Assembly (NCBI RefSeq): GCF_037975245.1 | Contig: NC_092568.1 | Location: 17,441,001-17,505,000 of the forward strand | DNA from: Apostichopus japonicus | Lineage: Eukaryota > Echinodermata > Holothuroidea > Aspidochirotida > Stichopodidae | Length of the DNA stretch: 64,000 bases | Direction of reading: 5' to 3' | Shown: positions 59,401 to 63,798 of the stretch, in pieces | Position numbering within the stretch: position 1 is the first letter of the stretch | Layout of the letters: every line of letters starts with the position of its first letter | Position numbers and translations under genes: made by a program | The notes under the pieces: generated by a model | Seen by the model: the letters and a program-made list of their open reading frames with translations, nothing else | Database searches by the model: none | What the model was told of the DNA's origin: nothing

Positions 59401-62400
59401 ATTTGCCAGTCAAGACTATTACACATATTATGAGACCTTATAGTTTGTGTAAAATTTCAATTTATTCTAATTCATTAATGAGTTACGATAAGAACTAATT
59501 AATTTATTTACTCTTTCGTTTAAGTCCTAGCATCCATGACATGTGTTGTGATGAATTGTTTCTTTCTTTTTGTCATTATTAGGAGCTAACTCACCTGATA
59601 AGATTACCAGGGTTGAAAGTTTTAGGTTTAAAGGACCCTCTGTATGCACCCAACCCTGTCTGTTACCTCTGTAACTACTCAACTCATGTACTCTACCACC
59701 TTCCGGGCTTGGAACGACTCGATTCTTACGATGTTTGCAACAAAACTATGAGGGAAATGGCAGAGGTAATGCTATAAATTAAGACGGTCACATATTTTGC
59801 TCAACAAACAGTTAAGGGTGACAATTTTGTTGGAGATTTGCCAATGCAAAAATTGTTATTTTAAAAATTAAAAAGCATGGGTGCCTAGAAGGGGATTTTA
59901 TACCAGTTACCTCAAAAATACAAGGACTTTACAAAATTATCTCTTTCTGAGCAGGGGTCAAACCTTCCTTACATTATGGGTTGTTTACCAGAAGCAGTAA
60001 CTATGAAGTCAGTAATATGTCAACAAATTCATATTATTCCAGTAACCTTTGATATGTTAACATTAATTGACCAATGCATACTTTGTGTACAACGTGAAAG
60101 GTCTGTGAACACCTAGGAACAAGATTGTCCTTATCACTCTAACAGGTATTGGAAATCATGAAAATAGCTGCAATGATGTAACATTTATATCATGCTCCAT
60201 TAAACTCCACAAAAAAACTAGAATCTGAAGCATTTCACAACGACAAATTTTGGATATACACTAATACAGACAAACAAAAGGCCTGAATAAAAAGAAAGTT
60301 TTTTACTCTAGATATAAAGCAAGCAACCGAAAATTTCTAATATGCAGAGAGAGAGGGGGGGGGGGGGGGAGGGGAGGATGGAAGAGTGAATTCTAATGAA
60401 GTTAATGACAAGTATTTGTGCAAGGTTGCTGTTCTCCAGCATTCTCTGAAATGTAAACATGTTGTTTCTGTTCCGTCAGGCTACCGTGGTGAAGAAGAAG
60501 ATGTACTACAATATGAGAATCCAGACTTTAAAGAGAGATCAGGCAGACATGCTACAGAGACTGATGAAAGAGAAGAAAGCCTGCATCAGGGAAACTAAAG
60601 AGAGGATTAGAAAACTAACCAGTGCTATTAAAGAGGTTAGTCTGCTCTAGATATCAGGTTATTGATTTTTTGAACGATGAAAGTCTCTGTCTATCATTCG
60701 TAATCCTCGTACTCGTTGAACGTCTTACCTGGTAGTGTTGTTCTCTGTGCTTTCAGGTAAGGTAAAGAGATTGTTTTGATGGTTAATCTGGTTTGGGTAC
60801 TTTTGGAATATGTTTATGATGTGTTAAGTGGGGGTTTGTTGTCTAGGGGATTATCCATGATCCAAAGTGAACTTAAAATTTACAACTGAACGGACCATTA
60901 ATGTGTGTAATTTTTTTCTGTTAATGTTGTTGGTGTTGTCAGTTTGATCAGCAATATAGTGTTTGCATTATTAACAACCTACTCATTTAAGAGTGCTAGA
61001 AATACATGATCAGTGGGATAGGTGGTGATGAATGTACTGCAGAGCTCTGTAACGTGGTTTAATGTCTGTTGCTGGTCGCTGCTGTTGATAACCTAAAATT
61101 TATTTCCTTTGAGATGTTTGGCTATAGCACCATCAGATTGTGAACAAATAAACTCACATTTGCAACTTTTAAAAAGGTGCTTTGGGACATGGTTGCAGAG
61201 ATAATGTTAATGCCTCAGATCAAAATAAGGAGCCATCAAAAAAAGTTTTCACACAGGGAGAAGGAAAGGAAGAAGAGAAGGGGGAGGGGAGGGGGGCAGG
61301 GCAGAATGGTCAGCAAACCGGTTAGATCAGCAATTTGTGTAAAACTGCCACGATGTTTGAGGAATCCCAAACCTCACCCCCCACCCTCAGCAACCAAAAC
61401 ACTAATCCCCACAAAATTTGGAGCTGATTCATTTTAATACACTGCACTACTTATGAAAATATTTGATGTGAGGAATATTACTGTAAAGATCAAGCACATA
61501 TCATTATAATGTCATAGTAACTGTTTAAGACAATTTTTCCCGGGTTATTTTCTCCCAGGTCGAGCGGGAGTTGTGCCAGATTTATAACGTGGCATTTTTC
61601 GAAGAAGCAGCCGATCTTCCGACCTTACCCAGGAACGATGAGGGACCCGGTAGTGGCACCGAAAGCGACACTCAAAACAGCAACGATCAGGAACTACCTC
61701 TGAATCTGAAAGCAAAGTTAGCTAGACTGAAGGCACGACTCAGTCTCTGCTATGACAAGCTCAGACAGTAAGTGATTGGTGATAAGCAATTTTTGGATCA
61801 TAACGTTACTAGTAGATGAAAATAGAATGATATCATAGTTTGTTTGTCATGGGCTTCTTTGTAACTTAGGCATGCATCTTTTTGTTGTTTCAGTATTCTT
61901 TAGTATTTAGAGTAGAGGGGCCTCTGTATCTTATGATAACCTACAAATGAAACAAGTTACACTGAAAGCAGGAATCTAAGTTTGACTCATTAGATTTTTA
62001 CAATATTTCTTCCAAGCAATATAGTCTGTTTCTTCTTAAGAAATTCTTTTGCCTTTATGACATTATTCACCAGTCATTCAATCTTCTGTTTTCTCTTACA
62101 AATTTGTTTTTTTATTTCTATTCATTTGTGTGTAGACTGGAAAAGTACATTCCAGTGCTTTGAATCAATTTGTCTGTTTTCTCTCACTTACAAACTGGTT
62201 TGTATTTCTATCCATTTGTGTGTAGACTGGAGAAGTACATTCCTGTCCCTTTCCATCGTTTCTTATGTCTTCTCTTACTTACAAACTGGTTTGTATTTCT
62301 ATCCATTTGTGTGTAGACTGGAGAAGTACATTCCTGTCCCTTTCCATCGTTTCTTATGTCTTCTCTTACTTACTAACTGGTTTGTATTTCTATCCATTTG

Positions 62401-63798: not shown

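Follow-up and report, generated by a model that had tools for sequence, protein, structure and literature searches.

Seventeen decoy splice acceptors before an exon of a leucine-rich-repeat gene: a probable intronic minisatellite of the mirage type

Minisatellite-like repeats that copy an intron-exon boundary have been described in amphioxus under the name of mirages, the examples treated in the accounts cited here being the globin genes BflGb6 and BflGb9, Adh3, TnC and PGBD5 (PMC3087553, PMC3902484). As far as the statements on splicing in these accounts go, the Adh3 data and the RT-PCR of the globins suggest that regular splicing is kept, the Adh and TnC mirages are reported with no aberrant mRNAs, and the undisturbed splicing at the PGBD5 mirage is an inference of the authors (PMC3087553, PMC3902484). 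The copy number of the BflGb6 repeat is given as variable between two haplotypes (PMC3087553, PMC3902484), and it has been suggested that new introns may arise from boundary-copying repeats (PMC3087553). To judge from its sequence, the array described here belongs to this already known kind of minisatellite, of which it is a large and clean further example.

The array lies in a 64,000-nucleotide stretch of Apostichopus japonicus DNA that was analysed at its full length (the window). The motif TTTGTGT[GT]TAG is found 18 times on the + strand between 62050 and 63720, corresponding to the genuine acceptor and to the 17 decoy acceptors that a preliminary description had counted before the real exon; over the whole window, it occurs 19 times on the + strand and 0 times on the - strand. 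The intron end TTTGTGTGTAG, followed by an exon-like start, is thus present in 17 head-to-tail copies directly 5' of the genuine exon, whose first base is 63667. Successive acceptors are spaced by 90, 91, 91, 90, 91, 90, 91, 90, 91, 90, 87, 90, 91, 90, 87, 90 and 91 bases, so that with 17 extra copies of 87-91 bp the array shows the head-to-tail organization and the minisatellite size of the mirages. Tandem Repeats Finder reported the region 62109-63675, with periods of 181 and 358, 96% matches and a score of 2803. The position given earlier for the array is right, except that the homology in alignments begins at approximately 62060 rather than 62110 and reaches about 13 bases into the exon. 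Similarly, the exon-like start ACTGGA(T/G) attributed to every unit was recovered in 16 of the 17 decoys, decoy 1 reading ACTGGAA. The coordinates of the features are given in Table 1.

Table 1. Location of the tandem array, of its parts and of the flanking exons in the window.
Feature	Coordinates	Strand	Remarks
Upstream exon (exon 8 of the preliminary description)	61559..61767	+	donor CA|GTAAGT
Whole tandem array, 17 decoy boundary copies and the genuine boundary	62060..63679	+	units of 87-91 bp; periods of 181 bp (dimer) and 358 bp (four units)
First unit, most diverged, left edge	62060..62148	+	59-65% identity to the other 17 units
Right part of the array	63041..63666	+	units 12 and 16 with a common 4-base deletion, 358 bp apart
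Last interval, from decoy 17 to the genuine acceptor	63576..63666	+	with the TAG, pyrimidine tract and branch-point-like TACAAAC of the genuine site
Downstream exon (exon 9 of the preliminary description)	63667..63798	+	132 nt, purine 0.65, donor GTAAGG

The start of the genuine exon immediately 3' of the array, as proposed earlier, is in agreement with the reading frame, which stays open when 63667 is joined to the donor at 61767; seven joined exons form one open reading frame of 317 residues that passes this junction. The host gene had been named LRRC9. Its leucine-rich repeats were recovered, whereas the name itself received no confirmation from Pfam, PDB or NCBIfam. In Pfam, one of the three single exons searched matched LRR families, passing the cut-off of LRR_4, and the joined 227-residue stretch gave no match. 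The PDB matches of the protein are general leucine-rich-repeat proteins (60 of 95 matches listed). The four NCBIfam models obtained describe bacterial proteins, three being named as internalin-like or leucine-rich-repeat proteins, and were set aside, all being far below their cut-offs.

Elsewhere in the window, an open frame of 794 codons with a high content of Ser and acidic residues (45411-47792, + strand) has no Pfam match and contains two repeats, one of 282 bp (3.1 copies, 96%) and one of 237 bp (2 copies, 92%). Three separate pieces of 14082-15661 are similar (74-87%) to 45861-48148, a pattern such as a decayed duplicate of the open-frame region at 14 kb would give. Regions 34622-36451 and 48147-49352 share three pieces (143 to 804 aligned columns, 89-93% identity) in a changed order, perhaps belonging to a mobile element. 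Tandem pairs are also present at 42338-42762 (208 bp, 98% identity, no gene recognised at the site) and, more diverged, at 7156-7466 (79% identity at an offset of 189 bp). Rfam and ARAGORN over the window gave one tRNA-like sequence only (10637-10711, + strand; Cys, anticodon ACA by ARAGORN; 47 bits in Rfam), perhaps a tRNA-derived short mobile element.

The preliminary description had proposed that the intron-exon boundary itself was duplicated. This is supported by our results, since the likeness of the copies to the genuine site extends over the end of the intron and over the first bases of the exon. As in the mirages, the unit comprises both sides of the adjoining boundary, the last part of the intron and the beginning of the exon, the intron side being near-identical; over the whole unit, the identity to the genuine unit is 80-93% for decoys 2-17 and 62% for decoy 1. 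Of the 13 bases at the start of the genuine exon, 10 and 9 are found again in the two main decoy types, the other TAG sites on the + strand of the window matching the exon start at 8 of 13 at most. When the boundaries of the gene were tested (7 acceptors and 7 donors, the first exon start being set one base late and the downstream side of the last exon being limited by the window end), a copy within 2 kb exceeding the shuffled sequences was found only for the acceptor at 63667, with a score of 36 against 15 for the best of 100 shuffles; the six remaining acceptors and the seven donors gave no copy over this distance that outscored their 100 shuffles. An unrelated satellite or mobile element that landed by chance beside the exon could be invoked, given the many other repeats in the window. 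It is very unlikely in view of the blastn search of the unit pair against the rest of the window, which returned no other copy (best E 0.38), and of the exon-side likeness, which at the fixed register is reached by 0 of 844 TAG sites (9 matches or more). The exact 23-base core gave 0 matches in the genome-contig and viral-contig collections, an outcome to be expected with animal DNA. Translated in the frame set by the upstream exon, the exon-side copies give Q-L-E-K-Y or Q-L-D-H-Y, compared with Q-M-D-Q-Y in the genuine exon; the decoy readings would fit an older exon start, and these exon-side tags may preserve older versions of the first codons of the exon.

The comparison of units 2-18 provides information on the growth of the array. 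No letter differs among units 5, 7, 9, 11, 13, 15 and 17, and further identical groups are formed by units 4, 10 and 14, by units 6 and 8, and by units 12 and 16, which carry the same 4-base deletion; units 2, 3 and 18 are each without an identical partner in this comparison. This pattern indicates a growth as 181-bp dimers and, as units 12 and 16 suggest, as a 358-bp four-unit block. The diverged first unit is, as far as alignment can tell, what is usually seen where a tandem array has an old edge. A comparison of the two unit types shows differences at 17 of 91 columns and an identical stretch of 34 bases that includes the acceptor core (permutation p 0.003), for which either conversion between copies or selection in the past may be responsible. 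We also considered microhomology as the seed of the first duplication, based on a short gapped match between the exon start and the left edge; this is not claimed, because 119 of 1700 control windows score equally. Near-identical units are prone to misassembly, and one amphioxus mirage looks aberrantly assembled in the draft, according to the account in PMC3087553. An assembly artefact inflating the copy number is nevertheless highly improbable here, considering the patterned variants and the deletion among the units and the clear divergence of the first one, features which do not by themselves prove the unit count.

At the level of splice signals, a TAG preceded by a pyrimidine-rich run is kept in all 17 decoys, with 18 pyrimidines out of 27 at -30 to -4 in 16 decoys, 20 in decoy 1 and 19 in the genuine site. 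TACTAAC, the stronger branch-point motif by consensus, is found in 7 of the 17 decoys and is absent from the genuine unit, whereas TACAAAC is found in nine decoys and in the genuine unit, and decoy 1 has shorter matches only. As in the mirages, the copies thus carry splice signals, with one of the two heptamers in 16 of 17 decoys; a possible branch point near the decoys, on which the preliminary description made its reading depend, is provided by these branch-point-like motifs. In an ungapped comparison with the genuine site over the 48 positions from -45 to +3, 14 of the 17 decoys show 2 to 4 differences. The count rises to 7 in decoys 12 and 16, owing to their deletion, and to 16 in decoy 1, as a result of shifted bases. 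The acceptor sequence does not tell the decoys from the genuine site. The hexamer GTACAT nine bases after the acceptor in 10 of the 17 decoys, together with the conservation of the frame by nine bases (direct reading), could suggest an alternative-splicing cassette in which the decoys with this early GT serve as 9-base microexons adding Leu-Glu-Lys; GTACAT being a weak donor by consensus, such a cassette is extremely unlikely.

To evaluate the consequence of decoy use, the reading frame was followed from each acceptor. Of the 18 acceptors, the genuine one alone leaves the frame open (0 of 17 decoys), and a premature stop is predicted with every decoy, at the TAG of a later acceptor in 16 cases and at a TGA for decoy 1. 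The frame shift announced earlier for the last decoys is confirmed, 63486 and 63576 both shifting by 1; decoys 3, 8 and 9 lie at a multiple of three from the genuine site, yet meet stops. We rejected the idea that these stops are a designed feature: the shuffled sequence gave 0 open frames in 300 for each of the 17 decoys, the stops being therefore at chance level and no sign of design.

These predicted stops in 17 of 17 decoys could be in agreement with a decoy array of poison acceptors, which would hold splicing factors or would sometimes be used, leading to retained or premature-stop transcripts and to a lower output of the gene. The TAG and pyrimidine-rich run kept in every decoy, the presence of TACTAAC in seven decoys and not in the genuine unit, and the 34-base identical run with the acceptor core between the unit types point in the same direction, and decoy exons have been proposed, in the part of the literature represented by PMC8706089, as a cause of intron retention. 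Nevertheless, the stops are no more than chance would give, the cores would also be intact in a recent array, conversion between copies could yield the 34-base run, and the amphioxus repeats of the same build are, in the accounts cited above, reported with undisturbed splicing. Moreover, a further AG is present at -29 in seven decoys, shortly 3' of their TACAAAC, although AGs very close to the branch point can be bypassed, as stated in the section of PMC1431707 on this point. Such a poison-acceptor role is unlikely. A bolder version, in which the array would be a length-adjustable brake, with 17 working acceptors competing (seven with the stronger branch-point motif), their use leading to a premature stop (16 of 17 at a later TAG) and the copy number setting the mRNA level, is quite improbable.

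The preliminary description had further claimed that the array should either lead to alternative splicing or require some way of disregarding the decoys, acceptor choice favouring the first AG. This claim is not supported: the search for the first AG begins at the branch point in use, as presented in PMC1431707, the genuine site has its own branch-point-like motif, and amphioxus repeats of this build are reported, in the accounts cited above, to leave splicing undisturbed. The paradox is weaker because 16 of the 17 decoys and the genuine unit have their own branch-point-like motifs. For the genuine site, the nearest other AG is 83 bases upstream, and its own motif together with this distance means that the first-AG rule alone gives the decoys no advantage. 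RNA folding was examined as a selector and rejected, because the probability of the AG being unpaired (0.49 for the genuine site, 0.01-0.45 for the decoys, two of them at 0.45) differs too little to explain the choice. The exon itself is more distinctive, with 83 GAA/GAG triplets per kb versus 13 per kb in the array, and a length of 132 nt versus 223 to 1663 nt for the hypothetical decoy exons. Acceptors can be selected through definition of the exon that they open, and exon definition by the purine-rich 132-nt exon would be the likeliest selector of the genuine acceptor.

Taken together, these data lead us to propose with good confidence that the array is an intronic minisatellite of the mirage type, arising from a tandem duplication of approximately 90 bp across the 3' splice site of one exon in a leucine-rich-repeat gene, and that the genuine acceptor is probably the one used. 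The first duplication would have involved about 77 bases of the intron and about 13 of the exon; the copies would then have diverged into the two types, a pair of which became the 181-bp dimer, and dimers and the four-unit block, of which the pattern is visible in the units, would have been amplified by unequal exchange or slippage. At the RNA level, the last, genuine acceptor would probably be picked by means of the purine-rich exon and its donor, and the whole array would be removed as intron. The array could offer a natural experiment on the information that, in addition to the acceptor sequence, directs the spliceosome to one copy.

In the accounts available for comparison, the closest relatives remain the mirages, which are likewise tandem, minisatellite-like duplications of an intron-exon boundary with splice signals in many units; they differ from the present array by its 181-bp and 358-bp higher order and by the copying of only about 13 exon bases. 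In BflGb6, the 3' end of the intron and the 5' part of the exon are repeated as they are here and the boundary units escape homogenisation, which we count as a further likeness, but this repeat has 6 and 3 units of 150-160 bp in the two haplotypes compared with 17 extra units of 87-91 bp, and the units of Adh3 measure 10-72 bp. The VNTR in intron 18 of human ABCA7, as described in the parts of PMC5954066 on its splicing, is also an intronic tandem repeat with a splice site in the unit, and a frameshift follows when splicing at a cryptic site leaves one unit in the transcript; however, its 25-bp unit carries a donor and not an acceptor, and the effect that rises with length is the skipping of exon 19. 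Human internal tandem repeats share the intragenic expansion of a minisatellite, some of them at exon-intron boundaries, but those presented in PMC2812944 are found in recent paralogs within segmental duplications and are discussed there as a source of novel introns. Finally, the decoy exons linked to intron retention, as far as PMC8706089 presents them, resemble the array in offering extra intronic splice sites that possibly compete with the genuine ones, and differ from it in being exon-like units tested in minigenes.
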